A stretch of DNA of 39,909 bases, taken from positions 1-39,909 of IMG/VR virus record IMGVR_UViG_3300009488_000011; one strand, written 5' to 3'. Every line of letters begins with the position of its first letter. Position 1 is the stretch's first letter. The position numbers and the translations under genes are program-made. Of this stretch, positions 2,052-39,671 are shown piece after piece. The stretch comes from a virus. The notes below the pieces were generated by a model, which saw only the letters and a list, made by a program, of their open reading frames with translations, searched no databases and was not told the origin of the DNA.

Positions 2052-2080
2052 TTGACACAGGGCCCCCGTTGTGTTATTTA
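2052..2080 (+). promoter_or_regulatory. Rightward late promoter candidate
   Basis: TTGACA at 2052-2057, a 17-base spacer and TATTTA at 2075-2080 lie immediately upstream of the terminase small-subunit gene. Transcription would begin close to the ATG at 2087, and no Shine-Dalgarno sequence is visible before that ATG. This may give a leaderless message. The -10 box matches the consensus at only three of six positions. Confidence 0.45.
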
Positions 2081-2086
2081 TTAACT

Positions 2087-2485
2087 ATGCTGACTCAACG
2101 TCAGGAAACTTTTAGAAACCTTGTCTTCCAAGGTATCATTCCTTTCAAAGCTTACGAACAAGCAGGCTTCAAAGTTACTACCAAGCACGCCGCTGAATCA
2201 AATGCTTCTCGTCTGCTGAAAAATGCTGAAATTCAAGCTTCCTTGGAAGAACTACGCAAGCCTGCAAAGAAAGCTCTTATTGCCACAAGAGACGAATTAG
2301 GAGAGATTTATACCATAGCTGTCAAAGGGTCAAAGACGAACATCAGGGATAAGGTATTAGCAGGCAGAGAAATCAGCCAATTATACGGGTATTATAACCA
2401 GCCACCGGGACAGAATGTCAATATCGTTTTTCTAATTGGCAAGGGATATGCAAATCAATTAAAAGAGGGTAAAGGTGGCCACTGA
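2087..2485 (+). CDS. terS: Terminase small subunit (TerS)
   Basis: This 132-residue protein should recognise viral DNA and deliver it to the large subunit for packaging. The N-terminal helix-turn-helix region (LTQRQETFRNLVFQGIIPFKAYEQAGFKVTTKHAAESNASRLLKNAEIQASLEEL) follows the usual pattern of the Terminase_2 family: a QEKF-type first helix, A-xx-AGF, then SxxLLKNxxI. The C-terminal part is helical. It precedes and overlaps the large subunit gene by 11 bases. I chose the ATG at 2087. A TTG at 2069 is also in frame, but it lies inside the promoter candidate, and neither start has a clear ribosome-binding site. Confidence 0.85.
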   Translation: MLTQRQETFRNLVFQGIIPFKAYEQAGFKVTTKHAAESNASRLLKNAEIQASLEELRKPAKKALIATRDELGEIYTIAVKGSKTNIRDKVLAGREISQLYGYYNQPPGQNVNIVFLIGKGYANQLKEGKGGH

Positions 2486-3725
2486 AGTTAAGGTAGTCTG
2501 GGAGCCTATCAACAAGCCACAAGATGGTTTTGTGGCTTCTCAGGCTCCCCGTTCTTTGTTTTCTGGGGCGTTTGGGGCTGGTAAGACGATAGCCTTATGC
2601 GCTAAGGCACTGAAGCTGTCTCTTGATTATCCCAGGAATTACGGTCTGATATGTCGTAAAGTCAGGGCAACTCTCGGTCAAACCACCCTCAAAACTTTCC
2701 TTGAAAAAGTATGTCCTCGAGAACTTATTGCTAGCTATAATAAGAGTGAGGGGTTGGTTACGCTTAATAATGGCTCTCAAATACTTTTTGGTGGGCTGGA
2801 TGACCCTCTAAAGCTCGGTTCATTGGAGTTGGGTTGGGCTGGTCTAGACGAGGCTATAGAGACTAATGAGGATGACTGGCGCATGATTGAAGGGAGATTG
2901 CGGTTGCCGGACGTTCCTCATCAGATATTTGCTGCTACTAACCCTGGTCCTCCGACTCATTACCTTTACCGAATGTTTTTCCAAGAGCAGAAAGGAGATG
3001 TTTACCAAGCCAGCAGTTATGATAATCCAGCACTACCAGAGGATTACAGGCAACGCCTCTCTGAGTTTGAGGGAGTTTACAAAGACCGATACGTATTAGG
3101 GTTATGGAAAGGGCTGGAGGGTTTAGTATATTCAGCATTTGATGAGAAGATATGTTTGATACCAAGGTTTGAGGTTGATAAAAAGTGGCCTGTTTATGTG
3201 GGCCATGACTTTGGTCGGGTAAATGCTGCTGCTTTATTTTATGCTGAAAGTCCTGGTACAGGGGACTTCTTTGCCTTCGCAGAATATTGGCCTTCTTCTG
3301 AGATGAGCTATTTTGACCATGTGCAGGCTTTTAAGATGATTACCGATGGGTGGAATGTGTTAAGGCGAGTAGGTGGCAATCATCAGGAGACAGGGGAAAG
3401 GCAAGCGTATACGGCTCAGGGTTGGCCGATAAGTGAACCGAAGCATAGTCTTGATAAGCCTCTCCAAATTAAAAAGGTTCAAGCGATGCACCGCTTGAAT
3501 AAGGTTTATATCTTTAACGACTTAACTAATTATGTCAGAGAGAAGTTCAGTTTTGTATTTAAGGGTGAGGTCATAGATAATGAGGCTAAATTTCACTTAA
3601 TGGCTTGTGAGAGGGCTATATTGAGTGACTTTGTGCCTGAGACCGTGAATACAGGAGTACCAGTAGCGGTAAGTAACGCAACTGGTAGGCCTTTAAGGAG
3701 TAGAACAAGGAGGATAAGATGGTAG
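2475..3725 (+). CDS. terL: Terminase large subunit (TerL)
   Basis: This 416-residue protein is the ATP-driven packaging motor and headful or site-specific nuclease. The Walker A motif GAFGAGKT lies at residues 31-38. The Walker B motif is WAGLDE, with D125 and catalytic E126. The coupling motif AATNPG is at about 153-158. The RNase H-like nuclease domain opens with VGHDFG (D245), the expected first metal ligand. The start is GTG at 2475 behind GAGGGTAAAG, overlapping terS. Length is normal for the family. The C-terminus ends in a basic tail (TGRPLRSRTRRIRW). Confidence 0.93.
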   Translation: MATEVKVVWEPINKPQDGFVASQAPRSLFSGAFGAGKTIALCAKALKLSLDYPRNYGLICRKVRATLGQTTLKTFLEKVCPRELIASYNKSEGLVTLNNGSQILFGGLDDPLKLGSLELGWAGLDEAIETNEDDWRMIEGRLRLPDVPHQIFAATNPGPPTHYLYRMFFQEQKGDVYQASSYDNPALPEDYRQRLSEFEGVYKDRYVLGLWKGLEGLVYSAFDEKICLIPRFEVDKKWPVYVGHDFGRVNAAALFYAESPGTGDFFAFAEYWPSSEMSYFDHVQAFKMITDGWNVLRRVGGNHQETGERQAYTAQGWPISEPKHSLDKPLQIKKVQAMHRLNKVYIFNDLTNYVREKFSFVFKGEVIDNEAKFHLMACERAILSDFVPETVNTGVPVAVSNATGRPLRSRTRRIRW

Positions 3726-4932: not shown

Positions 4933-5236
4933 GCAAGAAGGGATAAGGGAAATGACTAAGAACTACCTAGTAGGATGTATTCACGGAGCTACTGCGAGTT
5001 ATGCTAGTTTAAGTGGATACGATAAGTCAACAGTGGACTTTGAGACAGATGAACTACTAGAAGAACAATCCAAGCAGGGGTTAGTTCTCAAGGTAGAGAG
5101 GGAGTTGCCTGTAATAACGTGGAACTCAGATGACCCCCTATATGACATAGCTTTTCAGAGGGGTATAGCAGAAGGTATGGGTAAATTACTCAAAGCTGGC
5201 TATGAAGCAGTAGTGCCACTGATAGAGGGGGAATGA
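4925..5236 (+). CDS. MATREE-family small protein, second paralogue, 103 aa
   Basis: This 103-residue protein overlaps the end of its paralogue by 8 bases and shares the central VLKVEREL segment and the C-terminal AGYEAVVPLIE signature. It lacks the cysteines of the first copy and instead has a longer middle section (YDKSTVDFETDELLEEQ). GAGGTGAAGG before the ATG serves as ribosome-binding site inside the upstream gene. The tandem arrangement shows local duplication followed by divergence. Function unknown. Confidence 0.72.
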   Translation: MTKQEGIREMTKNYLVGCIHGATASYASLSGYDKSTVDFETDELLEEQSKQGLVLKVERELPVITWNSDDPLYDIAFQRGIAEGMGKLLKAGYEAVVPLIEGE

Positions 5237-5238
5237 TA

Positions 5239-5352
5239 ATGAAATGTGCTTATTGTAAAGACCCGATTTATAAGAACCAAAGGCTAAAAGTGGAAGGAAA
5301 AACACTCCCCTTTCACAAAGGTTGTCTTAACATTGCACTTCGCAAGCAATAG
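5239..5352 (+). CDS. 37-residue zinc-knuckle protein
   Basis: The reading frame MKCAYCKDPIYKNQRLKVEG to RKQ carries C-x2-C near the start and H-x2-C later (FHKGC), the spacing of half a LIM-type or treble-clef zinc finger. The gene begins two bases after the previous stop, behind GAGGGGGAATGATA. It is followed by its own intergenic AGGAGGG for the next gene. Its size and four metal ligands make it a credible minimal zinc finger; the partner is unknown. Confidence 0.65.
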   Translation: MKCAYCKDPIYKNQRLKVEGKTLPFHKGCLNIALRKQ

Positions 5353-8736: not shown

Positions 8737-11700
8737 ATGGTATTAAGTACTAAGAAACCAGGTTGGATGCTTGAAGAGGCTAAGAAAAGGCGAGAGGAAG
8801 AAAGCAAGTTAGGTAAGACAGTTCACACTTTTGATTATTGGTATCAGCAACTTGCGATAGAAATAAGGCCTAAACCTCCAGTAAAAGAGCCTGAAGAACC
8901 CATAGAGGAACCAATACTTCCAAGTCTTCGTGCTCGTGGATTCATTGAGAGAATAGGGCGAGAACCTTTACCTCCCATTGAGGAACCGAGAGAAGAACTC
9001 CCTGAAGTAGCGCCCACTGAAGAAATAACAGATGAAGACCTTGAGACTTTTGTTGACGAGATAGAGATTCAGGGCAGGACTCCTGAACTTGAGATGTTAC
9101 TGGTAGAGATGGGGGCTACTCCTGAAGATGTCGATGAGATATTTGGTGTGCCAGCGGAAGTGACAGATGAGGAATTTCTTTATCAAGAATACCTCCGTAC
9201 TGGTGGGAAACTAGATGTTAGTGCATGGAGAGTAGTTGGAAGTCCCATCCGTCCTGAAGATGAGAGGGAAGAAGTGGGGGTGAAACCACGAGCAACAAAA
9301 TACCTTGAAAATCAGTGGGGAGAATGGTTAGTAAAAGAAGTCTCTGAAGGCCTTAATAAATCATACATGCTTGTAACAAATGTTGACATAGAGGATTATA
9401 TTGTAGACCATCCTGATGTATGGGAGCGTGTTGAAGCATGGCAAAAGGAGTTTCCTGCATTAACTTTAATGGATGAGGTTGGTATTTTGGGGGGGAGCCT
9501 ATTGATGCTCCCCCAACAATGGGGTGCAGCAATTCTACAAGCAACTCAGGGCTTTGGGGGAGCAAGTGTTGTAGACCCTGATTGGGCTGACAGGTTTATA
9601 GAGGATGCCAATAGAGAGATGAATGAATTTGTCAGCGAGGTTTCTATAAAATATAAGGAGAGACCATCGCTACTGGGCATATCTCCTGCGGATATGGCAT
9701 CGGTCTCTCGTAATATTGCTTATTCCCTAACTTCAATGGGGGCAGGTCTTATTGTTGGCTTACCGACAGCCCTAATTCCGGTGCCTGGAGCAAGGGTTGC
9801 TGCTTGGACAGCAGGAACGGCTGCATCAGGAGCCGTTGCTTATCAAATGACTACTTATCAAATAACGCAAACATATTTGGAGTTAATGAATGAAGAAAAG
9901 ATAGCCAGAACAGGTACGGGATTAACTAGGGAAGAAGAGGAACAACTAAAAGATGATTTCTTTGACAAGGCAAGGAAGTATGGTCTGTGGGAAGCAGTCC
10001 CAGAGGCTCTTAGTAATCTTGCCTTTGCAAAGTTATTAACTGGCCCTTTAACTGGGATGGTTGGTAGGTCAATAGCTTCTCGGATTGTTGTTAAGGTAGG
10101 TGGAATCTATGGTGAGGAGTTGTTGACTGAGACAATAACGCAGAAGGGGCAGTCGGATATTGAGGTGGAGGCTGGATTGAGAGAGGGGAGAATAAGTTGG
10201 CAAGAGGCATTCAAAGAAGTAGCTCCTCAAACGTTCCTCTTAACAACGATAATGGGGGGTCTTGGGCAAGTAACTGTATCCTCGGTTAATAAGATAAAGG
10301 CATCCTTAAAAAGTGAAATAGGTGAAGAACATCCTTTATTTAAGGAAATAAATGAAAACATCACAGAGGATATTATTCCTACTTCTACAGAACCAGAGTT
10401 AGCATTGCCTGAAGAAGTTATCACTCCAACAGAAGTTCCAACTAGAGTTCCTCCAACAAAACCACCTTTAACTGAGGCTCTTATTAAAGAAGCTGATGAG
10501 ATAGTTACTAAAGCGGAAGCTATTCAACCTGAAAATCCTTCTGTAATTGAGTTCAGGAGGTTGGTTAATGAGGCACAAGGAGCAACTGGTGAGGTTCAAA
10601 GGCAGGCTCTTATCAAGATGGAAGCACTTGAGGATGAGATAAGAGCAATAGTTCCTGAAGAACTCCCCACAGTAGAACCTGAAGTAGTCCCAACTAAAGC
10701 AGTAACCCCTACAAATTGGCAAAGAGCTTTAACAGAAGCTGATGAGACTATGGTTTCATTAAAAACTGGGCAACTTCGTCCTGATTTAACAGTAGATACG
10801 CAAGAATATCAGGATTTTATTGACAGTGAAATAACTAGAATAGCCAGTAAATATGGTGTGCCTGAAGCAATCTTGCGGAAACAAACCTTGTGGGAACCGA
10901 GTCCTGCGGGAGTAGAAGAAAGGATACCACTTACTGAGGCTGAAATAGATGAACTAGTTGCTAGTGTTGCCAAACCCCCTGAAGTTGCAAGAGGTGAAGA
11001 GGGTTTCGTTAGGTTGCCTGGGGAACCAGAACCTGTTAGAACTTTACCAGTGGAAGAAGTATCTAAGTTAGAGACTAGAATACCCATAGACCTCATACGG
11101 AAAGATGAACCAGAAACGATTAGAAGACTAACTGAGGAAATTCAAAGGGAAGGCATAAAGGAACCGATTGTAATAAGAATCCGAGAAGATGGCTCTCAAA
11201 TAGTATGGGATGGAATACACAGACTTATAGTAGCACAAGATTTAGGAATTAAGGATATTCCTGTTAGATTCATTAGTGATGAGGGTTTAGGAGTTAAGCC
11301 TCCAACAGAACCCGAACCTCCGACTCTTCCTCCTGGATTAAAAAAACCAATTGAGTCACTATCTACAGCAGAATTAAAACAACGTATTGAAAAGGCTACT
11401 CCTTATAGGAAACTTTACCAAGCTGAATTAGATAGGAGAGCAAAGCCTGAAATTGTTGAAGCACCCCCAGTAGAAGAAGTTGTCTCTGATGATAAGGGGG
11501 TAATAACACCTCCACCTGATGAGGTTTTACCAAAGGCTGTTGAAGACAATACTCCTATGATACAGGATATTGGCGTAAAGGAAAGGGTTAGAGGAAGTCG
11601 CCACGTCTTTGACAAAATGGGTGTATATGAGATATGGGAAGGGATTACTGAAGCCGAGGTGCTAGTATCTGAGGCTAACACAGTCTTCAATAAAGAAGTA

Positions 11701-14700
11701 GATGCAATTACTAAGCGTGTTGGTAAGGATAAGGAACGCTGGGGTTTAATCTTTGATGACGCTAATGAAAAAGGTAGCGTAGTGGGACTTACTTTTGAAG
11801 AAAAGAGGGCTGTAAATTATATCAGAAACTGGGCAAATGAATGGGCAGAAAAAAAGAACTTGCCTCAAGAGAAGAGAATAGAGGATTATATCCCTCACCT
11901 TTTTGAGCAGGAAATGATTGACCAGATTAAAGAACGGGATGGTATATCGCCTGAAATTGCTGGCGTATTAAACGAGAGAGTATCAAAGAAAATCACAGAC
12001 CCATTTCTTAAGGAACGTCTAGGTGCTTTAGGCTTTATACGCGACCCCTTTAGAGCTATGAAGGCTTATAACGCTGTTTCTAATAGGGTTCTTTATTATG
12101 AGCCATTTCTACAAAAGATAGCAGCTATAGCCAATGATACTTCTATGCCCAAGAGGTCAAGGGAATATCTTAAAGATTACTCTCGAAGGATGACAGGTGA
12201 ACCATCTAAACTAGACCAGGATATAAACAAGTCTCTTGCTGAAGTTGGTGAGGCAATAAGGAAATTGCCGGGTGGCGAGGGATTGGCTAATCTTCTTACT
12301 AAAGGTAATCCCTCTGGCTTGGCTGCCTATAATCTTACGAGTGCTCTATATACTCTTTGGTTAGGTTTTAAGGCTACGTCTGCTATTAGAAATCTTAGTC
12401 AGCATGGGTTGATAATTGGTGAAGTCGGGCCAATTCACTTTGCCAATGGAATAAGACTAAGGATTACTAAAGAGGGGCGAGCAGCGTTAGAGAAGTCCCT
12501 TGTTCTAAGAGGACGCAAGATGGCGTTCACAGCAGGTCTTGATGCTTCTTTTGCTGATAATTGGGCAGGCAAGTTTAGGGAAACTGCGCTATGGATGTTT
12601 AGGTATGCTGACAAGCAAAATGTGTCTGATGCCTTTCTTTCTGGTTACTCTGAAGCCAAGTCTTTGCTTCCTGATGCTGACCCATCGGTGTGGATAAAGC
12701 GTGCTGATGAGGTCGCCGCTGATACCCAGTATTTATATACCAAGATGAACAGTATGGCCATCGCTCAAAATGCTCCTGGCAGGGTATTCTCTATGCTCAC
12801 TACGTGGACTGAAAACTGGATTGAGTTGACGGGTAAGTGGATAACACGTAGACCATCAAAGGTTTACTCTGAATATAATGAAGCTACAGGTGTAGATGTA
12901 TCTGGTGCAAATTGGTCTACTACATACAAAGCTGTTGCAATGTATCTTATTATAGCAGCCATCGGGTATATTCTCAAGGAAAAGACTAGATTGAAGGCTC
13001 TTGAATATACAGGTATTACATCACTCAAATATATGGCTGGGGTGGTTGGTGGGGAGTTCCCAGCATTAGAGGCACCTGGGGCTGTTGCTGACCTCATAGC
13101 AGGCGTATTAACTCAAGATGATAGGTTGATGAAGCAGGGTTGGAATCAGGTAAAGAATATCTTTACTCCTGGAGTAATAAGGCAGATTATGGGGGTAGCT
13201 TTGGGCGATAAGGACTGGTTGACATTATTCTTTTACCTTGAAGGCAAGAGTATAGAAATTAAGAGATTAAGGGATAAATGGAAGAAGGGATGGGAGGGCT
13301 ATGAGGATTTATCCGATGTGTTAATTAGGGGCAAGGAGTATCCTACTCTTACTAAGGGTCAAGCACAAAGCAAATGGAGAGAAGATAATCCCTTTTTAGA
13401 AGCACAGATGTTTGTTGTTGGCCAATTCACGACACTATCCTCAGAAGAAGCACGGCAAGGAGTATCCTACCTTATTGAGACAAATAAGTTAGACCCTGAA
13501 CTAATAGAGGGTTATGAGAAGGTCTTTGGGATAGATACCTCAACAGAACTAGCTCCATTTCAAAAGCGGATAGGCAACCTTGAGAAGCTGGTAATAGGGG
13601 AAGAAGCTGAATACTTTGATATGGGTCGCTTTGCTGGTGAAGTTCATAAGTGGGTAAACACTCAAGGTAGGTCTAAGGTTATGAGAGACGGACACCCCTT
13701 AGCGGTAGAACTGCTAAATGCTGAGGACTTATGGGAACCCTATTTTAACCAAGAGTCTGCTGACCAGAGGAAATTAGATAGGCAGAGAGACCCTGAATTA
13801 GAGGGCCAGTTATATTTCTGGGGCAAGGTTCAATCCTTTGAAAACCCAAAGAGTGCTGAGATTCTTTTGAGTTTGATGAAGAAATATAATATACCTCCAG
13901 AGGCTATCAATGCTTTTCAGCAAGACCCTCAGAAGTATGATGATTTGTTCACACAGAAGTTTGAGTTAGAAAAGAAGTCGTTTGAACTGGATACTCTGTA
14001 TGACAACTATGGCAATACTGAATCTGATGTTTATATTGAAGACCTGGAGGAGCGCAAGGAATCAAGAACTAAACTCAAAGAAGATAACCCTGAGTGGGTA
14101 GCTGACCTAAGACGCATTGAGGCCATTGATAATGAGGCTGATGAGGGAACTATTGAAAGTTGGGTAGAACGAGGTAAAACGGTAGATGAATTTGGGGCTG
14201 GTAGTTCCGAAGGTAAGGTCTGGTTGCTTGACAATCCTGAAGCGCATAAATGGGCTTTGGAGCAGAAACTACTTACCGATGATGGTTCAGATTGGAATGA
14301 GAATGTTTTGAGGATAAATGTCCAATGGGCAAAGGAAGATGATGAATACAATGCCCTCCCTGTAGAAGATAGGGAAGTTTACCTTGATAAACATGAGGGC
14401 TATCGCAAGGACAAGCGGAGGCGGGATGGTTACAGTAAGGGAATAACTGAAATAGAAGACTATGTAGCTTTTTATGAACTACCGACTAAGGGGTATTGGC
14501 AGGAGAGATTTTTAGTTGAACATCCTAAATTAGCTAAAGAGATGAACAGGGATATTCCAATTAAAGTTCTACCAGAAGAATATGATATATTGCGCGAAAA
14601 GGAAGATAAGACTCCAGAAGATAAACTCCGAATTACTGCCTATGAAAAGGAAGTTCCTGAAAATCAACTTGATACCTATGTCTCCTACTACTCAATAGAG

Positions 14701-15027
14701 AAACCCGAAGACTACCCAAAGAACACAACATACTGGGAAGATGATTGGTTTTTAGTGGAACATCCTGACTTCTATAAAGAGGTCTATATCGGAGTCCTTG
14801 GGAATCAGGAAAGGGACTTTACTAAAGTTCCAACACGTGAGGTTGGAGCCAAATATATACATTACAAGACACTAACAAGCCAGATGGAGAGAGACCAATA
14901 CCGTCTAGATAATCCTGACTTAGATGAGTGGGGTGTCTCAGTGGGGATATGGTCAGTTACTATGAGTGAGAAGAGACGGAGGTTAGGTTTAACACCTGGT
15001 GAAAGATTTAGGGAGTCTCTTAAATAA
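8737..15027 (+). CDS. Giant internal virion protein with ParB-like domain, 2096 aa
   Basis: This one gene takes up 16 percent of the genome. Regions in order: a Pro/Glu-rich N-terminus (about 45-110); a hydrophobic Gly/Ala-rich stretch (about 334-372); a second Pro/Glu-rich linker (about 545-680); a ParB/sulfiredoxin-like fold (about 781-846: RIPIDLI, GIKEPIVIRI, then box G826-I-H-R829); a large helical region holding EDYIPHLF (1049-1056) and AIRNLSQ (about 1217), which recalls large polyvalent-type phage proteins; a transmembrane-like helix (about 1399-1415); and a C-terminal zone with degenerate DNP/EHP repeats. With no tape measure, such a protein probably rides inside the capsid and is ejected with DNA, as internal core proteins of podoviruses are. 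AGGAG lies five bases before the ATG. Domain names are by resemblance. Confidence 0.75.
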   Translation: MVLSTKKPGWMLEEAKKRREEESKLGKTVHTFDYWYQQLAIEIRPKPPVKEPEEPIEEPILPSLRARGFIERIGREPLPPIEEPREELPEVAPTEEITDEDLETFVDEIEIQGRTPELEMLLVEMGATPEDVDEIFGVPAEVTDEEFLYQEYLRTGGKLDVSAWRVVGSPIRPEDEREEVGVKPRATKYLENQWGEWLVKEVSEGLNKSYMLVTNVDIEDYIVDHPDVWERVEAWQKEFPALTLMDEVGILGGSLLMLPQQWGAAILQATQGFGGASVVDPDWADRFIEDANREMNEFVSEVSIKYKERPSLLGISPADMASVSRNIAYSLTSMGAGLIVGLPTALIPVPGARVAAWTAGTAASGAVAYQMTTYQITQTYLELMNEEKIARTGTGLTREEEEQLKDDFFDKARKYGLWEAVPEALSNLAFAKLLTGPLTGMVGRSIASRIVVKVGGIYGEELLTETITQKGQSDIEVEAGLREGRISWQEAFKEVAPQTFLLTTIMGGLGQVTVSSVNKIKASLKSEIGEEHPLFKEINENITEDIIPTSTEPELALPEEVITPTEVPTRVPPTKPPLTEALIKEADEIVTKAEAIQPENPSVIEFRRLVNEAQGATGEVQRQALIKMEALEDEIRAIVPEELPTVEPEVVPTKAVTPTNWQRALTEADETMVSLKTGQLRPDLTVDTQEYQDFIDSEITRIASKYGVPEAILRKQTLWEPSPAGVEERIPLTEAEIDELVASVAKPPEVARGEEGFVRLPGEPEPVRTLPVEEVSKLETRIPIDLIRKDEPETIRRLTEEIQREGIKEPIVIRIREDGSQIVWDGIHRLIVAQDLGIKDIPVRFISDEGLGVKPPTEPEPPTLPPGLKKPIESLSTAELKQRIEKATPYRKLYQAELDRRAKPEIVEAPPVEEVVSDDKGVITPPPDEVLPKAVEDNTPMIQDIGVKERVRGSRHVFDKMGVYEIWEGITEAEVLVSEANTVFNKEVDAITKRVGKDKERWGLIFDDANEKGSVVGLTFEEKRAVNYIRNWANEWAEKKNLPQEKRIEDYIPHLFEQEMIDQIKERDGISPEIAGVLNERVSKKITDPFLKERLGALGFIRDPFRAMKAYNAVSNRVLYYEPFLQKIAAIANDTSMPKRSREYLKDYSRRMTGEPSKLDQDINKSLAEVGEAIRKLPGGEGLANLLTKGNPSGLAAYNLTSALYTLWLGFKATSAIRNLSQHGLIIGEVGPIHFANGIRLRITKEGRAALEKSLVLRGRKMAFTAGLDASFADNWAGKFRETALWMFRYADKQNVSDAFLSGYSEAKSLLPDADPSVWIKRADEVAADTQYLYTKMNSMAIAQNAPGRVFSMLTTWTENWIELTGKWITRRPSKVYSEYNEATGVDVSGANWSTTYKAVAMYLIIAAIGYILKEKTRLKALEYTGITSLKYMAGVVGGEFPALEAPGAVADLIAGVLTQDDRLMKQGWNQVKNIFTPGVIRQIMGVALGDKDWLTLFFYLEGKSIEIKRLRDKWKKGWEGYEDLSDVLIRGKEYPTLTKGQAQSKWREDNPFLEAQMFVVGQFTTLSSEEARQGVSYLIETNKLDPELIEGYEKVFGIDTSTELAPFQKRIGNLEKLVIGEEAEYFDMGRFAGEVHKWVNTQGRSKVMRDGHPLAVELLNAEDLWEPYFNQESADQRKLDRQRDPELEGQLYFWGKVQSFENPKSAEILLSLMKKYNIPPEAINAFQQDPQKYDDLFTQKFELEKKSFELDTLYDNYGNTESDVYIEDLEERKESRTKLKEDNPEWVADLRRIEAIDNEADEGTIESWVERGKTVDEFGAGSSEGKVWLLDNPEAHKWALEQKLLTDDGSDWNENVLRINVQWAKEDDEYNALPVEDREVYLDKHEGYRKDKRRRDGYSKGITEIEDYVAFYELPTKGYWQERFLVEHPKLAKEMNRDIPIKVLPEEYDILREKEDKTPEDKLRITAYEKEVPENQLDTYVSYYSIEKPEDYPKNTTYWEDDWFLVEHPDFYKEVYIGVLGNQERDFTKVPTREVGAKYIHYKTLTSQMERDQYRLDNPDLDEWGVSVGIWSVTMSEKRRRLGLTPGERFRESLK

Positions 15028-16776: not shown

Positions 16777-17637
16777 ATGACATTAAGTGGAAGAACCCCA
16801 ACTGGGGCTGATACCGCAGGTCATGTGCCTGAAATATGGAGTCAGCAAACTATAGATGAAGCTGAGAAGGAACTGGTTGCCTGGGATGCAACCGACCATA
16901 GCTGGCAGAAGGACTTGGTAAAGGGTGACACTGTGAACATCGGTCTTATCAACAATGTAGACGCTACCGAAGTGGTCGTAGGAACTAAGGCTGCCAGTCT
17001 GGATATAGCTACAGGCAGTAAACTCCAACTCATCATGGACCAGTGGTTTGAAGCCCCAATAGATGTGGATACCATGACAGTCAAGCAGTCTCAGACAAAC
17101 TGGGCTACTAAGGCTCGGGGAAAGGCAGCTGAGTCCATTAGACGGAAGGTTGATTCTACTGTTTGTGCCCTGTACTCCAGCCTTAATACTTCGATTGGTG
17201 TAAAGGGTGTTGACGGAGATGAGATAACTGATGACCTTTTGCTTGAGCTCAAGGAGATACTGCTTGAGGCAGATATTCCAATGGACAACGATTTGTTCTT
17301 GATTTTTGACCCATCCGGTCTAACTGACATGCTGAAATACGATAAGTTCGTTGCTGCACAGTATGTCGCTATTGGAGCCGTTAATAATGGGCAGATTGGG
17401 AAAACACCTATCTATGGTTGCAATGTTCGAGTAACCAATAACCTGACGGCAGCGACTACAGGTGCCTATGCAGCGATGGTACACAGGTCGGCCATTGCCA
17501 GTGCTCTTCAGATAGAGAGTCCCTGGACAAAAGATTTTGAAGAGCTACATCAGGTTAGATTCCAGCATGAGGCTCTTTGGGGTGTCCTGGAGGTCAGAGA
17601 CACCTTTGGCATCTGCTTCTTTACCAGGAAAGCGTAA
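16777..17637 (+). CDS. Major capsid protein, HK97-like
   Basis: This 286-residue protein follows the scaffold. It shows the usual order: N-arm (EIWSQQTIDEAEKELVAWDA), E-loop-like beta region (GDTVNIGLINNVDATEVVVG), a spine helix (ATKARGKAAESIRRKVDSTV), a second helix with DDLLLELKEILLEADIP then the typical LFLIFDPSGLTDMLK strand-helix, and a C-terminal A-domain (AYAAMVHRSAIASALQIESP; GVLEVRDTFGICFF). It resembles small capsid proteins of podoviruses and P22-type relatives. GTGAGG precedes the ATG. Expected to be the most abundant virion protein. Confidence 0.87.
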   Translation: MTLSGRTPTGADTAGHVPEIWSQQTIDEAEKELVAWDATDHSWQKDLVKGDTVNIGLINNVDATEVVVGTKAASLDIATGSKLQLIMDQWFEAPIDVDTMTVKQSQTNWATKARGKAAESIRRKVDSTVCALYSSLNTSIGVKGVDGDEITDDLLLELKEILLEADIPMDNDLFLIFDPSGLTDMLKYDKFVAAQYVAIGAVNNGQIGKTPIYGCNVRVTNNLTAATTGAYAAMVHRSAIASALQIESPWTKDFEELHQVRFQHEALWGVLEVRDTFGICFFTRKA

Positions 17638-27442: not shown

Positions 27443-27619
27443 GTGCAGAGAAAAGGCAGGAACTGGAAATCCAAGTACGTAACTATCGAGATGTTCAAGC
27501 AGTTTGTAAACAATGATTTTACCCATGTGAAAAGGGATATTGCTCAAAGTAAATGGTTGATAAGAATTGTTTTAGGAGCAATAATTGTCTGGGCTCTGAT
27601 AGATAGATTATTCGACTGA
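27443..27619 (+). CDS. Holin candidate (XhlA-like), 58 aa
   Basis: The frame MQRKGRNWKSKYVTIEMFKQ, FVNNDFTHVKRDIAQSK, then WLIRIVLGAIIVWALIDRL has a cytosolic basic helix followed by one C-terminal membrane helix, the layout of XhlA/hemolysin-type phage holins, in which the phrase NDFxH precedes the membrane segment. GGAGG lies six bases before the GTG at 27443. It occupies the usual lysis-module place after the last tail gene. A holin would permeabilise the membrane at the end of infection. The call rests on layout, not on a search. Confidence 0.6.
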   Translation: MQRKGRNWKSKYVTIEMFKQFVNNDFTHVKRDIAQSKWLIRIVLGAIIVWALIDRLFD

Positions 27620-27653
27620 TGGAGGCTAAGATGAGCAGTAAGGAGAGCGACAA

Positions 27654-28058
27654 ATGGAGCTCCTTATTGATGGAAGAGCACTTAACACGCATCTCCTCAA
27701 GGATGTGGAGTCTCTAAAGCAATGGCTTCTACTTGCTGCTGAGGAAGCAGGGATGACTGTCTTTGGTGAACCTCAAGCCTACCAGACTTCTTATCCTCTA
27801 AAACCGCCTCTTAAAGATTCAGGACTTTCCGGTATTGTATTCTTAGGTGAAAGCAATATAACTGTCCATACCTATCCCGAATTTAGTTGGGTTAGTATAA
27901 ATTTCTATACCTGTAAGGATATTGAGCCACCCGGGAAGTTACTCAAGTTTATCGAGAAATCTATGGTGATGATTGATTACCAGGCTTTTTGTTTCCAGCG
28001 AGGAATTGACTTAGAAACTGGAGAACCACAGAAGACTAAACTACTGTGGGAAATATAA
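27654..28058 (+). CDS. speD: S-adenosylmethionine decarboxylase proenzyme, SpeD-like
   Basis: This 134-residue protein has every catalytic position of the class 1 bacterial AdoMetDC family. The self-cleavage site is GES67N, giving a pyruvoyl group on Ser67. Ser59, His72 (in HTYPE) and Cys87 (in FYTC) have exactly the spacing of Ser55, Ser63, His68 and Cys83 in the Thermotoga enzyme. Normally the enzyme decarboxylates AdoMet for spermidine synthesis; some relatives, including viral ones, act instead on arginine or ornithine. The usual His after the cleavage Ser is Asn here. AAGGAGAG precedes the ATG. It is the last gene of the late unit, beside the holin candidate, with no spermidine synthase gene in the genome. 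Confidence 0.85.
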   Translation: MELLIDGRALNTHLLKDVESLKQWLLLAAEEAGMTVFGEPQAYQTSYPLKPPLKDSGLSGIVFLGESNITVHTYPEFSWVSINFYTCKDIEPPGKLLKFIEKSMVMIDYQAFCFQRGIDLETGEPQKTKLLWEI

Positions 28059-28123: not shown

Positions 28124-28146
28124 CCCTTAGAGATAAGGGTTTTTTT
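28124..28146 (+). terminator. Intrinsic terminator of the late unit
   Basis: CCCTTA (28124-28129), a GAGA loop and TAAGGG (28134-28139) form a 6-bp hairpin followed directly by seven T (28140-28146). It lies 65 bases after the SpeD-like gene and before a new promoter, marking the end of the rightward late transcript. Confidence 0.88.
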
Positions 28147-28174: not shown

Positions 28175-28202
28175 TAGACAAGACGTGTAATAGGTGTATA
28201 AT
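28175..28202 (+). promoter_or_regulatory. Promoter of the second rightward unit
   Basis: TAGACA (28175-28180), a 16-base spacer and a perfect TATAAT (28197-28202) form a sigma-70-type promoter right after the late terminator. It should drive the HTH, recombination/replication and helicase genes from 28257 to 36262. Host-type consensus suggests early expression by the host polymerase. Confidence 0.75.
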
Positions 28203-28224: not shown

Positions 28225-28259
28225 TATCAGGCAATATATGCTGAAAGGAGAGGAGAATG
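28225..28259 (+). repeat. 35-bp leader repeat, first copy
   Basis: This stretch, from TATCAGGCAATATATG to the start codon of the next gene, recurs without mismatch at 34915-34949, again ending exactly at a start codon. It contains GAAAGGAGAGGAGA, an extended ribosome-binding site. Both copies introduce unrelated proteins, so the leader itself has been duplicated as a module. Confidence 0.9.
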
Positions 28260-28568
28260 GGGAAGAAGGTGAGATTCGAGGTGGGGGAAAGCGTACTGTA
28301 CCACAGACGCCCAACCAAGCATCAATGTCCTCACTGTGGGTACAAGCACAACTCCTCCAGACATGTGGCAGATATAATGGTTGCTGAAATACGAGGGGTG
28401 GCCTCCATCTTCGGAAATTTCCACTGCTGCAACTGTGCTGGTATTTATCCTGCCCCCAAGAGTTGGTATCAATTGAATGTGAAGGGAAACCTTGGCTATT
28501 ATATAGCTGTCCCCCACACTCTACTAGAGAAATTCGATACAACAGTGCTATATGGGGCAATGAAGTAG
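28257..28568 (+). CDS. Zinc-ribbon protein, first gene of the second unit, 103 aa
   Basis: CPHCGYKH near residue 24 and CCNCAG near residue 60 give a four-cysteine ribbon with an inserted strand region (VADIMVAEIRGVASIFGNFH). The N-terminus resembles a short SH3-like barrel (VRFEVGESVLYHRRP). It is translated from the duplicated 35-bp leader. Being the first gene behind the promoter at 28175, it may be made early. No family is recognised. Confidence 0.75.
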   Translation: MGKKVRFEVGESVLYHRRPTKHQCPHCGYKHNSSRHVADIMVAEIRGVASIFGNFHCCNCAGIYPAPKSWYQLNVKGNLGYYIAVPHTLLEKFDTTVLYGAMK

Positions 28569-28578
28569 AGAGTGATAT

Positions 28579-28752
28579 ATGGCTAAAGATAATTATATAA
28601 GAAAGCTAAGGAAAAAGCTCATGCTAGACCAAGAGGAATTTGCCAAACTTATGGATGTATGTAAAGACACAGTATCCAGATGGGAGCGTGGAGAGCAGAG
28701 GCCTAAAGCTGTTCACCTCAGAAGAATGGCTAGGCTAGGTAAAAGGAGGTAA
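28579..28752 (+). CDS. Cro/CI-type HTH regulator, 57 aa
   Basis: The frame reads MAKDNYIRKLRKKLMLDQEE, FAKLMDVCKDTVSRWERGEQ, RPKAVHLRRMARLGKRR, a minimal HTH_3 (Xre/Cro) domain: helix 1, Q-xx-FA-xx-M turn, and recognition helix CKDTVSRWE. It is a paralogue of the leftward gene at 39501-39671 (34 of 51 aligned residues identical, recognition helix the same but for R/K). The ribosome-binding site is weak (AGAGAGTGATAT). Its last codons supply the AAAGGAGG of the next gene. It should bind phage operators as a dimer, probably as a Cro- or repressor-type switch. Confidence 0.85.
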   Translation: MAKDNYIRKLRKKLMLDQEEFAKLMDVCKDTVSRWERGEQRPKAVHLRRMARLGKRR

Positions 28753-28976: not shown

Positions 28977-29183
28977 ATGGATAAATTTTGGACATGCTGG
29001 GTAGAAGATACAACACCTGGAACACGCAAGCACTTCAGTCCAGAGGAAGCACATGATGAAGCCCGGAGACTGGGTAGAATTCGCCATAATATCGGCAAGA
29101 AAGTATATGTCATGGAATGTATTGAATACTGTGAAGTCCCAGAGTTGCCAGTAGCATGGCACATATTTGCTAAGGAGGGATAA
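28977..29183 (+). CDS. Hypothetical protein, 68 aa
   Basis: A small alpha/beta protein (FWTCWVEDTTPGTRKHFSPE; EAHDEARRLGRIRHNIGKKV; YVMECIEYCEVPE) whose strand-helix-strand order suggests a compact single domain with FSPEEAHDEA at the head of the helix, the arrangement typical of small proteins that display or bind a ligand. ATAGGAGG precedes the ATG. No family is recognised. Confidence 0.72.
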   Translation: MDKFWTCWVEDTTPGTRKHFSPEEAHDEARRLGRIRHNIGKKVYVMECIEYCEVPELPVAWHIFAKEG

Positions 29184-29187
29184 AAAA

Positions 29188-30303
29188 ATGCCAATTAAAG
29201 ATTTAAGTGAATCAGTCAGGCTTCCTCGTCTCGGTAAAATCCACTTAGGCGTGAGACATCCTGAAAAGGGATACCCTATGAAGACTGACCATTTCGTCTT
29301 GCCCAAAGACCACTCCGACTATGAGAAGATAGTAGCGTTATTTGGCGACAAGCCAAAGGAACTGCGAATCCTTATCCCTGTTGAGGATGCGGAAGAATGG
29401 GCTACTCAGTATTACAAAGCCTACAATCAAACCTATGGCCTTGTGTGTAAGGGTGATGGTGAAATAGCTCTACGGATGGCTGATTCCAAAACAGGCGAAC
29501 TGCCAAAAGCGAATGTCTCAAGCACAGTTGGCTTGAAGGAAATAGTCTGTGCTGGTAAGGACTGCGAAGATTACCAAGCTAAGAAATGCCACGAAGTAAT
29601 GAACCTAAAGTTTATTATACCCGAAGTGCCGGGGCTCGGTGTATGGCAAATAGATACTGGCTCGAAGAACTCTATCCTTAACATCAACTCCTGTGCCAAG
29701 ATTATTAAGAGAACTTTTGGGCGAATATCCTTGATTCCGTTGAAGCTAACCTTTGAGCCTATTCAGGTAAACAATCCTGAAGATGGTAAGAAGCAGACTG
29801 TCTATGTCCTCAACTTACGAACAGAGGTAACAATGGCACAACTAGCTGACCAAGCTAGGGAACAATCTAAGATGTTTATGATTGAAACTCCAGACTTGGA
29901 AGGTATTTATGATGCTCAGATTGAAAAAGACGTAGATGATTTGTGGGGAGACTTGGGACATCCTCAGACAGGTGAGATAATCGAGGAGGGCGTAGTCAAC
30001 GAAGAAGAGGCTATTGAACCAACAACAGAAGCCACAGAATCGAAAACTAGCCCTGATACCGCTCCAGAAGAGGTGACAGTAGCAGGGCAGATTGATAGAA
30101 CGTGGCTCATTGAGTCAATCAATTTACTACACCTTGATGCGCTGAAGTATATCAAGGACACCTATCACATTACTGCCGAAGGCAAGGAGGGTCTACTTGA
30201 GGTGGTGGCTAAACTTACCGCCGAGCAGAGAGTGGAATTTTCAAAGGTAATTAAAGACGGGCTTTCGCGGAGGAGATTAAGGTATGAGCAAGATAATCAG
30301 TGA
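29188..30303 (+). CDS. RDF/gp3-like zinc protein, tentative, 371 aa
   Basis: The opening PIKDLSESVRLPRLGKIHLG and TDHFVLPKDHSDYEKIVALF, then a cysteine cluster C121-x4-C126-x7-C134 followed by LKFIIPEVPGLGVWQIDTGS, resembles proteins annotated as recombination-directionality-factor-like (phiC31 gp3 type) or metal-binding hydrolases. The C-terminal third is acidic and low-complexity (EEAIEPTTEATESKTSPDTA), then a helical end. No integrase is encoded here, so a role in excision is doubtful; binding single-stranded DNA or a replication role is equally possible. AAGGAGGGATAA precedes the ATG at 29188. Confidence 0.5.
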   Translation: MPIKDLSESVRLPRLGKIHLGVRHPEKGYPMKTDHFVLPKDHSDYEKIVALFGDKPKELRILIPVEDAEEWATQYYKAYNQTYGLVCKGDGEIALRMADSKTGELPKANVSSTVGLKEIVCAGKDCEDYQAKKCHEVMNLKFIIPEVPGLGVWQIDTGSKNSILNINSCAKIIKRTFGRISLIPLKLTFEPIQVNNPEDGKKQTVYVLNLRTEVTMAQLADQAREQSKMFMIETPDLEGIYDAQIEKDVDDLWGDLGHPQTGEIIEEGVVNEEEAIEPTTEATESKTSPDTAPEEVTVAGQIDRTWLIESINLLHLDALKYIKDTYHITAEGKEGLLEVVAKLTAEQRVEFSKVIKDGLSRRRLRYEQDNQ

Positions 30304-31396: not shown

Positions 31397-32200
31397 ATGA
31401 ACAGAACAAAAATAGAATGGGTTAAAAATCCTGATGGAACACAAGGCTACACCTGGAATCCGATAACTGGTTGTTTGAATGGCTGTGAATACTGTTACGC
31501 TAGGAAGCTGGCTAATACCAGACTGAAGGAAAGGTATCTACTTAATCCAAAGGTTGCTGATATTGATGGTCAGTTACGCGACTCACAAAGTCCATTATGG
31601 GATAGAGTTATAAAAGACCCCTTCTATCCCCGCTTCTGGGAAGATAGGCTAACACAGGTATCTCCTGACCAAAAACCGAGAGGGATATTTCCGTGTGATA
31701 TGAGCGATTTATTTGGAATAGGTATACCCGAATACTGGACTCAATCTGTATTGTGGCACATTGATAATTGCCCACAGCACCGCTTCTATTTACTCACCAA
31801 GCAACCTCAGAACCTACCGAAATGGAGTCCGTTTCCTCAGAATTGTTGGGTGGGTGTGAGTGTAACCAATAAAGAATATCTGGGGCGGGCTTGTTATATA
31901 GGATTAGCTGAGATAGAAGCTAGTGTGAAGTTCATATCATTTGAACCATTACAAGGCAAAATAGAGTTACGTAAGGATGACCTAATAGATTGCGGTATCA
32001 ATTGGGTAATCATCGGAGCACAGACAAAGCCATACCGACCGCCAGCAATTGCAGATGTTCAAGAGATAGTTGAAGCCTGTGATAAGGCTGGTGTGGCTGT
32101 GTTTCTGAAGGACAATCTCTTTCTACCTGATGGTGAAGAGCCATTTTTTAAGTGTGGTAATGATGGCGATTGGAGAATAAGGCAGGAGGTGCCAAGATGA
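31397..32200 (+). CDS. DUF5131 (phage Gp37/Gp68) radical-SAM-like protein
   Basis: The N-terminus IEWVKNPDGTQGYTWNPITG is followed by C26-x3-C30-x2-C33 (CLNGCEYCYA), the cluster-binding motif of radical-SAM enzymes, and by blocks typical of DUF5131: PFYPRFWEDRL, IFPCDMSDLFG, RFYLLTKQPQNL, NCWVGVSVTN, FISFEPLQGKIE, WVIIGAQTKPYRP and VFLKDNL. Family members are widespread in phages and their reaction is not established. Length (267 residues) is normal. AGGGGGAGG precedes the ATG. It is translationally coupled (ATGA) to the ASCH-like gene, suggesting one pathway. Confidence 0.88.
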   Translation: MNRTKIEWVKNPDGTQGYTWNPITGCLNGCEYCYARKLANTRLKERYLLNPKVADIDGQLRDSQSPLWDRVIKDPFYPRFWEDRLTQVSPDQKPRGIFPCDMSDLFGIGIPEYWTQSVLWHIDNCPQHRFYLLTKQPQNLPKWSPFPQNCWVGVSVTNKEYLGRACYIGLAEIEASVKFISFEPLQGKIELRKDDLIDCGINWVIIGAQTKPYRPPAIADVQEIVEACDKAGVAVFLKDNLFLPDGEEPFFKCGNDGDWRIRQEVPR

Positions 32201-32775
32201 AAGAGACAGGAATAATATGCTCAGGCAATCACCCGAAGCTGATACTTGATGACCTTAAGACCATGACCAGGCGGACTAGGGGGCTGGAAAAGATAAATGA
32301 ATGTCCTGATGATTGGAAATTGTGGTATGGGGAACAAGGAAAGAATGTTAGGAACGGCTGGTTAAGATTATGCAAGGCAGATATGCAACCAGTCGACATC
32401 AAATGTCCTTATGGTCAAGTAGGCGATAGGTTGTGGGTGATGGAGACTTGGAGTGTTACTAAGGAATGGAATGATATACCACCGTCTCTGCTCAATCAGT
32501 TTCTAGATATTCATTATAAAGACGGCTCTTTCACTCACGAAATCCATGCCTTCTTTGAACAAGGTAAGTGGAGACCTTCAATCCACATGCCTCGATGGGC
32601 TTCCCGAATAGAAAGGATAATAACTCTATTGCGAGTTGAACGCTTGCGAGCTATATCTGAAGCGGATGCCAAGGCAGAAGGTGGTTACTCCATAGAAGAA
32701 TTTATCGAACTATTCCTTCGCTTGAACCATTTACCAAAAGACGTAAATCCTTGGAATTGGGTAATAGGATGGTAA
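32197..32775 (+). CDS. ASCH-like phage protein, 192 aa
   Basis: The blocks LILDDLKTMTRRTRGL, GQVGDRLWVMETW, RPSIHMPRWASRIERII and RVERLRAISEADAKAEGGYS are those of the common phage ASCH-domain family (beta barrel related to PUA), thought to bind RNA or modified nucleotides. The ATG at 32197 overlaps the DUF5131 stop; upstream GGAGGTGCC supports it. The middle carries a 55-residue variable insert. A nucleotide- or RNA-modification role with its partner is inferred. Confidence 0.82.
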   Translation: MKETGIICSGNHPKLILDDLKTMTRRTRGLEKINECPDDWKLWYGEQGKNVRNGWLRLCKADMQPVDIKCPYGQVGDRLWVMETWSVTKEWNDIPPSLLNQFLDIHYKDGSFTHEIHAFFEQGKWRPSIHMPRWASRIERIITLLRVERLRAISEADAKAEGGYSIEEFIELFLRLNHLPKDVNPWNWVIGW

Positions 32776-32795: not shown

Positions 32796-33542
32796 GTGCC
32801 AGAGTTAAAGCAAAGGCGCACAAGGGGGACTACTAAAAGGCTAGAGGATACAGGTTATTACTGCCATCCTTGGGTCCAGAAGTTACCTAAAGATGGTATC
32901 CACCTCTATAAGTATCTTTTCAGCAATAGCCACTGTAATCAGGCTGGGCTATACAAGATAAGCCTCCAGACCATAAGTTTTGAAACCAAGATAGACATAG
33001 ACGAGCTACCACAACTATTAAAGTTAATGGAAAAGAATGTCAAGTGGTGGCCGGATATAGACCTCATGTGGGTTAAAGAGTTTTTCTATGAGCAATGCAA
33101 CTCTCCTACATTTCTGACCGCGGCAGTAAATTGTCTCTCTGAGATTAAGCAGAAAGACGTTGTGGATGAGTTCATGGAGTATAATCTTAGGGAACACGAC
33201 TTAGAACTATTTATAAACATTAACGATACACAGCCTAAGAGGGGCGAAGCCCCTCTTAAAGAGGTGGGCAAGACTGACGACCTCAAGCTAGCTGGAATGA
33301 TAAGCTATTATGAGCAGTGTACTGGTAGGACACTCACTCCTACTGATTTTGAAAAACTGAAAGACTTTGCTGCCAACTACCCTGAAGGGTGGTTTGAGAA
33401 GGCAGTTGACCAGGCTGTTAAGAATAACGCTCGGTCTCCCATGAGTTATATTGGCAGAATACTGGAGCACTGGAAGCAAGACGGAGTTACTCTCAACGAA
33501 ACCAAGCCTGCTCAAAGGACACAGAAGTATGACTTTAGCTGA
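32796..33542 (+). CDS. DnaD-like replication initiator/helicase loader, 248 aa
   Basis: The N-terminal part (HPWVQKLPKDGIHLYKYLFS; CNQAGLYKISLQTISFETKI) is a winged-helix-like DNA-binding region. The C-terminal part (MISYYEQCTGRTLTPTDFEK, then NYPEGWFEKAVDQAVKNNAR and SPMSYIGRILEHW) is the DnaD/DnaB_2 signature, with conserved YYE, TP-x2-FEKL and YI-x2-IL-x2-W. Such proteins load the replicative helicase onto the origin. The start is GTG behind AGGAGG. It overlaps the DnaB gene by 14 bases, so loader and helicase are co-translated. Confidence 0.88.
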   Translation: MPELKQRRTRGTTKRLEDTGYYCHPWVQKLPKDGIHLYKYLFSNSHCNQAGLYKISLQTISFETKIDIDELPQLLKLMEKNVKWWPDIDLMWVKEFFYEQCNSPTFLTAAVNCLSEIKQKDVVDEFMEYNLREHDLELFININDTQPKRGEAPLKEVGKTDDLKLAGMISYYEQCTGRTLTPTDFEKLKDFAANYPEGWFEKAVDQAVKNNARSPMSYIGRILEHWKQDGVTLNETKPAQRTQKYDFS

Positions 33543-34851
33543 AGCTAAATTACCACCACACAATCTGGATGCTGAGGAGGCTGTATTAGGGTCTATCCTG
33601 ATTGATGGAGACCTTATAAAGTCTATAGGCTTGATGTCTGACGACTTTTACCACGAAGATTACAATCAGATATTCGGCGCTATGCTACAATTAAAAGAGA
33701 AGGCTCTCGGAATAAACCAGATTACAGTGGCTCAGGAGCTTGATGAATCTGATAAGCTGGAGGCTGCTGGCGGTGCTGCTATATTATCTCACCTTATATC
33801 AATCACTCCTACCAGTATGGACTGCCATCACTACGCTGAGATAGTGAAGCGGTTATCTATATTAAGACGGATGATTGTAGTTTCGGAACGTATAGCAGCC
33901 ATAGGCTACGATTCGCAGGGGAACATTACAGAAGCTCTGGCTAAAGCTGATAAGTTGCTACTTGAGTTAAGACGCTCATCTGGGTCAAGCCACATTATAA
34001 CGCCTGAAGGTAGAAGTAGTATCCTGATGGACAGATATACCGACCTGTATACTAAGGATAAAGGCGTAGCTGTAAGCACGGGACTTATTGATTTAGATAC
34101 AAAGCTAGGCAGTGGACTATTCCCTGGAGACCTTATAATCGTGGGGGCTAGACCAGGCGTAGGCAAGACAAGCCTGCTAGAGTGTATATCCAACCATATA
34201 GGACGACAACATAATGTCCTCTTCTGTAGTGCTGAAATGAATGTTGAGGGTTTGAGTGACAGGGACGTGGCCGGTGTGATAGGCATACCAGTAGGACAGG
34301 TCAGGCAAGGTGGCTATGAAGAGGGAGTTTATCAGAATATAATTGATAAGGCGATCCCTTACATTTCAGAATTGAATATATATCACATGGACATTACTAG
34401 GACCTACCAACTTACCACAGCAAACGTATATCAGGCTGCATTTGAACTGCACGCAAGACATGGACTGGCTCTTGTGGTAGTTGATTACTTGGGGATACTC
34501 AACGATAGGTTTGGCAATAATAATAATGACCGCATAGGTTATATCACAAGAAACCTGAAGCAGATGGCTATGACACTTGACATTCCAGTGCTGTGTGCCC
34601 ACCAACTTAACCGCGCACTTGAAGTAAGGGACGAGAAGCGTCCTCAACTGCATGATTTGAGGGATTCGGGTAATGTAGAACAGGATGCAGATATAATTCT
34701 ATTTATCTACCGGGAAAGCTACTATAACCGGGGAAGCGATAGCAAGGTAACAGAAATACTGATAGCGAAACAGCGCCAGGGTCCATCCGGCAAGGGAATA
34801 AAAGTTTTGTGGGATGATGTTGCTCAGACCTACCGTAATATGGTTCTGTGA
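33529..34851 (+). CDS. dnaB: Replicative DNA helicase DnaB
   Basis: The N-terminal domain (PPHNLDAEEAVLGSILIDGD) is typical of DnaB. Walker A is GARPGVGKT (206-214), Walker B is LVVVDYLGIL (D319), and the C-terminal block LRDSGNVEQDADIILFIYRE carries the DnaB arginine-finger region. Length (440 residues) is normal, with no intein. The ATG at 33529 lies inside the DnaD-like gene, giving tight coupling; a longer frame upstream lacks a good start. With no phage polymerase, primase or ligase encoded, the rest of replication must use host enzymes. Confidence 0.95.
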   Translation: MTLAEAKLPPHNLDAEEAVLGSILIDGDLIKSIGLMSDDFYHEDYNQIFGAMLQLKEKALGINQITVAQELDESDKLEAAGGAAILSHLISITPTSMDCHHYAEIVKRLSILRRMIVVSERIAAIGYDSQGNITEALAKADKLLLELRRSSGSSHIITPEGRSSILMDRYTDLYTKDKGVAVSTGLIDLDTKLGSGLFPGDLIIVGARPGVGKTSLLECISNHIGRQHNVLFCSAEMNVEGLSDRDVAGVIGIPVGQVRQGGYEEGVYQNIIDKAIPYISELNIYHMDITRTYQLTTANVYQAAFELHARHGLALVVVDYLGILNDRFGNNNNDRIGYITRNLKQMAMTLDIPVLCAHQLNRALEVRDEKRPQLHDLRDSGNVEQDADIILFIYRESYYNRGSDSKVTEILIAKQRQGPSGKGIKVLWDDVAQTYRNMVL

Positions 34852-39309: not shown

Positions 39310-39504
39310 CTAAGCCTCTCTGTTTATTCTGACAACTTCCTTGATGATCCCCCGCGCTTTCTTGTCGCCTGACTGGACCCTGACCTGTAGCTTGTTGTTT
39401 ACAAGCACCTCAATACCCAGGCTGTCAATCTCCGCTTGGGTATGGTCGTTCTTGTGCTGCTCTAACCATGAGCGACCGCATAACGGCTCATACATAGGCT
39501 TCAC
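39310..39504 (-). CDS. Hypothetical protein, 64 aa
   Basis: It contains an N-terminal helix (RSWLEQHKNDHTQAEIDSLG), then strands (IEVLVNNKLQVRVQSGDKKA) and a basic end (RGIIKEVVRINREA). The GTG at 39504 overlaps the HTH stop (GTGA); an ATG at 39495 behind AGAGGTGA is equally plausible and gives 61 residues. No family is recognised. Confidence 0.68.
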   Translation of the reverse strand: MKPMYEPLCGRSWLEQHKNDHTQAEIDSLGIEVLVNNKLQVRVQSGDKKARGIIKEVVRINREA

Positions 39505-39671
39505 CTCTTCTTCCTGAGTCTATCTAGCTTTCTGAGATGGACTGGCCGGGGCCTTCGCTGTCCATGTTCCCACTTGGATACCGTGTCTTTACAAACACCC
39601 ATTATCTTAGCAAACTCTGGCTGTGTTAGCATGCGCTTCTTCCTGAGTTTCTGTATCTCTTTTGGTGTCAT
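39501..39671 (-). CDS. Cro/CI-type HTH regulator, second paralogue, 56 aa
   Basis: The frame MTPKEIQKLRKKRMLTQPEF, AKIMGVCKDTVSKWEHGQRR, PRPVHLRKLDRLRKKR is a minimal HTH_3 domain with recognition helix CKDTVSKWE. It matches the rightward gene at 28579 at 34 of 51 aligned residues, including the DNA-contacting helix. AAAGGAGG precedes the ATG. It belongs to the leftward arm, whereas its paralogue belongs to the rightward second unit, a layout like a Cro/repressor pair without a classical CI. It probably regulates one or more of the palindromic or repeated sites at 1201-1239 and 1881-1900. Confidence 0.85.
   Translation of the reverse strand: MTPKEIQKLRKKRMLTQPEFAKIMGVCKDTVSKWEHGQRRPRPVHLRKLDRLRKKR

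Follow-up and report, generated by a model that had tools for sequence, protein, structure and literature searches.

The locus at positions 27654..28058 (+ strand) of the virus record IMGVR_UViG_3300009488_000011 raises the question of what a small tailed phage encodes in a SpeD-type gene and which substrate its product would decarboxylate; the window analyzed here is that whole record, 39,909 nucleotides in length. Genes of this kind are already known, since Li et al., 2023 (PMC9992855) characterized several phage SpeD proteins as true AdoMet decarboxylases (AdoMetDCs), the homolog of the pelagiphage HTVC201P as an arginine decarboxylase, and homologs from freshwater phages as ornithine decarboxylases, and the same group reported that AdoMetDC activity is often missing from the SpeD homologs of bacteria and archaea (PMC10407285), introducing the names SpeDA and SpeDC for the arginine and ornithine decarboxylases, respectively. 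The present protein is a real and divergent addition to this set, and its sequence features point to arginine as the most likely substrate.

The first-pass annotation had placed a SpeD-like ORF exactly at these coordinates, and this is confirmed. The gene codes for a protein of 134 aa from an ATG start, with a ribosome-binding site (AAGGAG, 27640..27645, +) 8 nt upstream. The protein is recognized by the Pfam AdoMet_dc profile with 66.6 bits (gathering score 25; E 2.9e-18), its residues 3-117 covering positions 2-107 of the 107 in the profile, and by PHROG 3125, ‘S-adenosylmethionine decarboxylase’ (E 2.5e-14), and it aligns with the Thermotoga maritima AdoMetDC (1tlu) in a phmmer search (E 2.5e-9). 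Structure prediction, which had been proposed as a check, returned the AdoMetDC fold: an AlphaFold2 model built from an alignment of 63 homologs has a pLDDT of 92.9, T. maritima structures are its best Foldseek matches (1tlu, E 1.8e-7), and VIA-align superposes it on PDB 1tlu with Z 14.8 and an rmsd of 2.3 over 113 residues, the phage SAM lyase 6zm9 being a weak fold match (Z 5.6). Thus, 27654-28058 is a real gene for a class 1b protein of the SpeD superfamily, far beyond chance. The AdoMetDC equivalog model TIGR03330 gives the protein 55.4 bits, under its cut-off of 75.65; this model is poor at separating substrates, because agmatinase-linked SpeD homologs score 66-88 bits with it, some above the cut-off and some below.

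All residues known to act in processing and catalysis are present, namely Ser59, Glu66, Ser67, His72, Cys87, and Arg116. In alignment with the T. maritima AdoMetDC, Ser59, Ser67, His72, and Cys87 correspond to Ser55, Ser63, His68, and Cys83, with spacings of 8, 5, and 20 in both proteins, in agreement with the earlier claim of a complete catalytic set with the spacing of the known proenzyme. Ser59 is in itself not diagnostic, Thr being common at this position among homologs. The alignments predict self-cleavage between Glu66 and Ser67, followed by Asn68 (27849..27857, +), and assign a processing role to His72 (27867..27869, +) and a catalytic one to Cys87 (27912..27914, +), both roles being those given in PMC10407285. 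The Asn in place of the common His after the cleavage serine, likewise pointed out before, is confirmed as rare: all other sequences of the comparison alignment have His here, a count that is biased because the patterns by which the set was largely retrieved demanded that His. A scan requiring both this Asn and HT[WYF]PE found no other protein, and a looser scan found Asn at this position in a further viral protein (L281) and in SpeDC-like viral proteins; we accordingly dropped Asn68 as a unique feature, and its occurrence in those proteins indicates that it is compatible with intact homologs. Three further features had escaped the first-pass annotation: Glu2 stands where His is near-invariant, Asn83 stands where the rest of the comparison alignment invariably has Asp, and residues 34-57 form a long loop. 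With Glu2, Asn68, and Asn83 combined, activity may be reduced, lost, or altered.

The record represents a complete 39.9-kb tailed-phage genome, as the same 123 bases stand at both of its ends (an exact terminal repeat). It encodes a terminase (2069-3725), a major head protein (16777-17637), tail genes (from 22984), a DnaD-like loader (32796-33542), and a DnaB helicase (33451-34851). The rightward late unit ends with the speD-type gene, which is directly followed by a terminator-like stem-loop (28124..28139, +; CCCTTAGAGATAAGGG TTTTTTT), beyond which a promoter-like site (28175-28202) precedes the next ORFs; the terminator search is statistically weak (2 found vs 1.5 in shuffles), but the T run after the stem is unbroken, and the position at the end of the late unit thereby stands as originally described. 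Such a position had been called odd for a metabolic gene, a judgment we do not share: transcription units often end with an accessory gene, and SpeD in phages is well documented. The upstream ORF of 58 aa (27443..27619, +), a former holin candidate, has a C-terminal hydrophobic segment and no family match in Pfam and PHROG searches, and single-sequence scans of IMG/VR recovered no close relatives of either the speD-type gene or its upstream neighbor. As stated before, no spermidine synthase accompanies the gene (PF01564 has no match in the complete genome), and the arginase/agmatinase family (PF00491) is likewise without a match there. A related phage (L171), with 58% identity in a tail protein, carries different small genes in the corresponding stretch, its whole 39.3-kb record being without SpeD; the speD-type gene is therefore accessory, having been gained or lost within this phage lineage. 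In a host search, the tail and capsid proteins each gave weak matches in Chloroflexota (7/400 genomes each), and the tail protein additionally one weak match in Bacillota.

Several other genes of this phage deserve mention in their own right. Just past the terminator, 28257-28752 holds a Cys-rich zinc-finger-like ORF and, after it, a small HTH ORF similar to the HTH domain of MqsA; a comparable HTH is present at 39501-39671. The product of 29167-30303 strongly matches a Gp3-like recombination directionality factor (166.9 bits); despite this match, the complete genome has no serine recombinase (PF00239). A DUF5131 radical-SAM-like protein (phrog_2045; 31397-32200) is encoded in a functionally unassigned pair with an overlapping gene for a phrog_874 protein (32170-32775). 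The 2096-aa protein encoded at 8737-15027 contains a weak ParB N-terminal-like segment (approximately residues 770-849) and a weak PLxRFG-domain match; in phage ZRG1, too, a ParB-like gene lies directly before speD.

Across phages, IMG/VR, and GTDB genomes, the nearest homologs of the phage protein reach about 34% identity over the domain and up to 40% over shorter stretches. These homologs fall into two large groups, one of AdoMetDC type with an HTW motif and Gly after the catalytic Cys, and the other with HTF and FSCK motifs and a longer loop; the best identity is equal, 34%, to the AdoMetDC-type and the agmatinase-linked (HTF) side. The HTF group occurs in Chloroflexota, Thermodesulfobacteriota, Woesearchaeota, a 735-kb phage, and phage MaAM05. 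Among 80 genome loci, an agmatinase-like gene lies within 4 kb in 30/36 loci of the HTF group and speE in none (0/36), as against 4/44 and 24/44, respectively, for the AdoMetDC type, fractions that describe this sample only since the loci were sampled as relatives of the phage protein. All six HTF neighbors checked with NCBIfam pass the agmatinase model TIGR01230 and none passes the arginase cut-off. By this gene context the HTF clade most likely comprises arginine decarboxylases, its link to the assayed SpeDA likewise being one of context. We considered and rejected ornithine decarboxylases as the identity of this clade, as the neighbors are agmatinases and true SpeDC-like proteins, with the Q/T/F/Y residues, were found elsewhere.

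The same survey brought up further arrangements. In the HTF-type loci L092-L170, many proteins matching the AdoMetDC model occur beside agmatinase and, in this sample, never beside speE; those HTF-type proteins that pass the AdoMetDC equivalog cut-off are probably misnamed arginine decarboxylases. Several Chloroflexota genomes hold two copies, one of each type in the cases read. In the 274-kb phage MaAM05 (L008, 1001-3375), an AdoMetDC-type speD, a speD of the agmatinase-linked type, speE, and speB are consecutive, apparently specifying the whole pathway from arginine to spermidine. Four viral contigs (L063, L067, L073, and L078) have two adjacent speD-type genes (e.g., L067:4545-4967 and 4971-5315), with a SpeDC-like gene (Q/T/F/Y) directly 5' of an AdoMetDC-like one, a possible module for putrescine plus decarboxylated AdoMet. 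Chloroflexota additionally encode proteins of about 540 aa with an HTF-type SpeD domain (L182-L184, L187, L188, and L190-L192; e.g., L182:1456-3060); in L182, the one scanned, AdoMet_dc is followed by DS, i.e., a deoxyhypusine-synthase/homospermidine-synthase-type domain. A deoxyhypusine-synthase-type domain is not known to use decarboxylated AdoMet, so that this fusion counts in favor of the arginine reading. No SpeD-DS fusion is described in the accessible portions of PMC9992855 or PMC10407285.

The sequence character that best tracks these groups is the length of the loop between the Met/Ala of a ‘GMT/GAT’ motif and the Gly located ten positions ahead of the cleavage serine, a marker derived in the present analysis rather than a published one. 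It measures 15-16 residues in all 130 AdoMetDC-type proteins, being 15 in each of the three verified AdoMetDCs (T. maritima, S-PM2, and phiYS40), 19 in the verified arginine decarboxylase of HTVC201P, 19-21 in SpeDC-like proteins, and 21-23 in the agmatinase-linked HTF clade; in the phage protein it spans Met34-Gly57 (27753..27824, +), i.e., 24 residues. The T. maritima loop stretch presumably holds an aromatic residue that packs on the adenine. Other characters agree with the loop: Lys88 follows the catalytic Cys, a position with Lys in 38/46 HTF proteins as compared to Gly in 128/130 and Lys in 0/130 of the AdoMetDC type, and the start MELLIDG resembles the MHLIIDG of the HTF clade. The Gln, Thr, Phe, and Tyr diagnostic of SpeDC are absent, with Val62, Glu66, Thr73, and Ser81 in the respective columns (as deduced from SpeDC-like sequences). 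Taken together, the loop, Lys88, the N-terminus, and the missing SpeDC residues favor an amino-acid decarboxylase, with arginine as the first candidate.

Phylogenetic analysis had also been proposed as a check: the trees put the phage protein outside the AdoMetDC clade, and they do not place it firmly in any clade. It falls outside AdoMetDC in 3/3 trees, and the AdoMetDC clade without it has support of 96/94 and 100/98 in the two careful trees, in which it sits on the branch between the AdoMetDC and HTF groups; the latter of these makes it the sister of the AdoMetDC clade and its nearest outsider (97/86). Its terminal branch is long, 1.4-2.7 across the three trees and 1.8 to 2.7 in the careful ones. 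A quick tree had joined it to the HTF clade (96), and as this union was lost in the careful trees, which had more rows, we claim no clade for it. AU tests rejected none of three placements (p=0.475 for union with the HTF clade, p=0.476 with the pelagiphage enzymes, and p=0.279 when nested among bacterial AdoMetDCs), assayed SpeDA being represented in the trees by HTVC201P alone.

On the basis of the long loop and of the genes beside the nearest long-loop clade (agmatinase in 30/36, speE in 0/36), we tentatively propose, at somewhat less than an even chance, that this accessory gene specifies a class 1b SpeD-fold proenzyme decarboxylating an amino acid late in infection, most likely L-arginine. 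The loop length and gene context of that clade thereby favor one of the options raised in the first-pass annotation, a neofunctionalized amino-acid decarboxylase. All steps after translation, i.e., self-processing, activity, substrate, timing, and benefit to the phage, are inferred: the proenzyme would be made late in infection and cleave itself between Glu66 and Ser67, with Ser67 becoming the pyruvoyl cofactor; the substrate would be bound through its amino group to the pyruvoyl and would release CO2, assisted by Cys87; with L-arginine the product would be agmatine, to be converted to putrescine by an agmatinase or deiminase of the host. Against arginine stand the long branch, the equal 34% identities, the AU test that rejects no placement, the lack of an agmatinase in the phage, and Glu2, Asn68, and Asn83 in place of near-invariant residues. 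An unlikely alternative is a bona fide AdoMetDC that would feed the host spermidine synthase and raise spermidine for phage replication: several assayed phage members of the family are AdoMetDCs (PMC9992855), Pro75, Glu76, and the TC motif resemble AdoMetDC, and one careful tree makes the protein sister to that clade, but both careful trees keep it outside, its loop of 24 residues exceeds the 15-16 of every AdoMetDC-type protein examined, and it falls below the TIGR03330 cut-off, though agmatinase-linked relatives fall on both sides of it.

The altered positions Glu2, Asn68, and Asn83, the long branch, and the lineage-specific occurrence, with absence from the related phage, would also suit a catalytically dead or repurposed SpeD fold, such as a gene in decay or a partner of the host SpeD without catalytic function; we regard this as unlikely too, in view of the intact ORF, ribosome-binding site, and known processing and catalytic residues, the confidently predicted fold, and the Asn after the serine in other intact viral homologs. 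A pyruvoyl ornithine decarboxylase would make putrescine directly and would therefore need no agmatinase. Phage SpeDC enzymes are proven (PMC9992855), and SpeDC-like viral proteins share with the phage protein the Asn after the serine and a ‘MxxFGEPQ’ stretch; the absence of all four residues given as diagnostic in PMC10407285 (0/4, at inferred columns) and an identity of only about 20% to the SpeDC-like group nevertheless make this quite improbable. The same low probability attaches to a separate SpeD subfamily, outside AdoMetDC and the known arginine and ornithine clades, in which the combination of Glu2, Asn68, Asn83, and the 24-residue loop would confer a substrate new to the fold. The idea that the enzyme depletes AdoMet to blunt restriction-modification or to time lysis comes from the first-pass annotation, and other phages do degrade AdoMet by unrelated enzymes; we consider it highly improbable, because a late gene would come too late against restriction and the radical-SAM-like protein of this phage would itself need AdoMet. 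Known anti-restriction AdoMet-degrading phage enzymes are early and belong to another family.

The locus enlarges the known set of phages with polyamine-type decarboxylases by one small, complete genome, and its unusual divergence makes it a test of how far substrate can be read from sequence. Were the arginine assignment correct, loop length would be a simple marker by which the AdoMet decarboxylases of this family could be told from its amino-acid decarboxylases. The agmatinase linkage (30/36 vs 4/44) offers a broader, checkable prediction beyond the phage protein, namely that many ‘AdoMet decarboxylase’ annotations in Chloroflexota and Thermodesulfobacteriota denote arginine decarboxylases.

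In comparison with known systems, the phage protein shares with the class 1b AdoMetDCs of T. maritima (TM0655; 1TLU/1VR7), S-PM2, and phiYS40 the fold, the proenzyme size, and the Ser/His/Cys/Arg set with its spacing, but differs in its low identity (approximately 25-28%), its loop (24 vs 15), its Glu2, Asn68, and Asn83, and its position outside their clade. With the agmatinase-linked HTF/FSCK homologs, whose gene context is like that of the SpeDA arginine decarboxylases of PMC10407285, it has in common the long loop, the Lys after Cys, the MxLLIDG start, and up to 34-40% identity over 88-121 residues; unlike them, it has Tyr74 for Phe, TC for SC, and Glu2, Asn68, and Asn83, and its phage lacks an agmatinase. 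The gene row of MaAM05 is the arrangement of Vampirovibrio, whose second SpeD is an arginine decarboxylase (PMC10407285). Long loops are also found in the SpeDC ornithine decarboxylases, some SpeDC-like members having Asn after the serine, but the phage protein has 0/4 of their diagnostic residues. Like the HTVC201P arginine decarboxylase (AXH71538; 24% identity over 78 residues), it is a phage-borne SpeD homolog with a long loop and no adjacent speE; HTVC201P, in contrast, has Thr before the serine, is without the HTxPE motif, and encodes its enzyme among nucleotide-metabolism genes, unlike the speD-type gene at 27654-28058.
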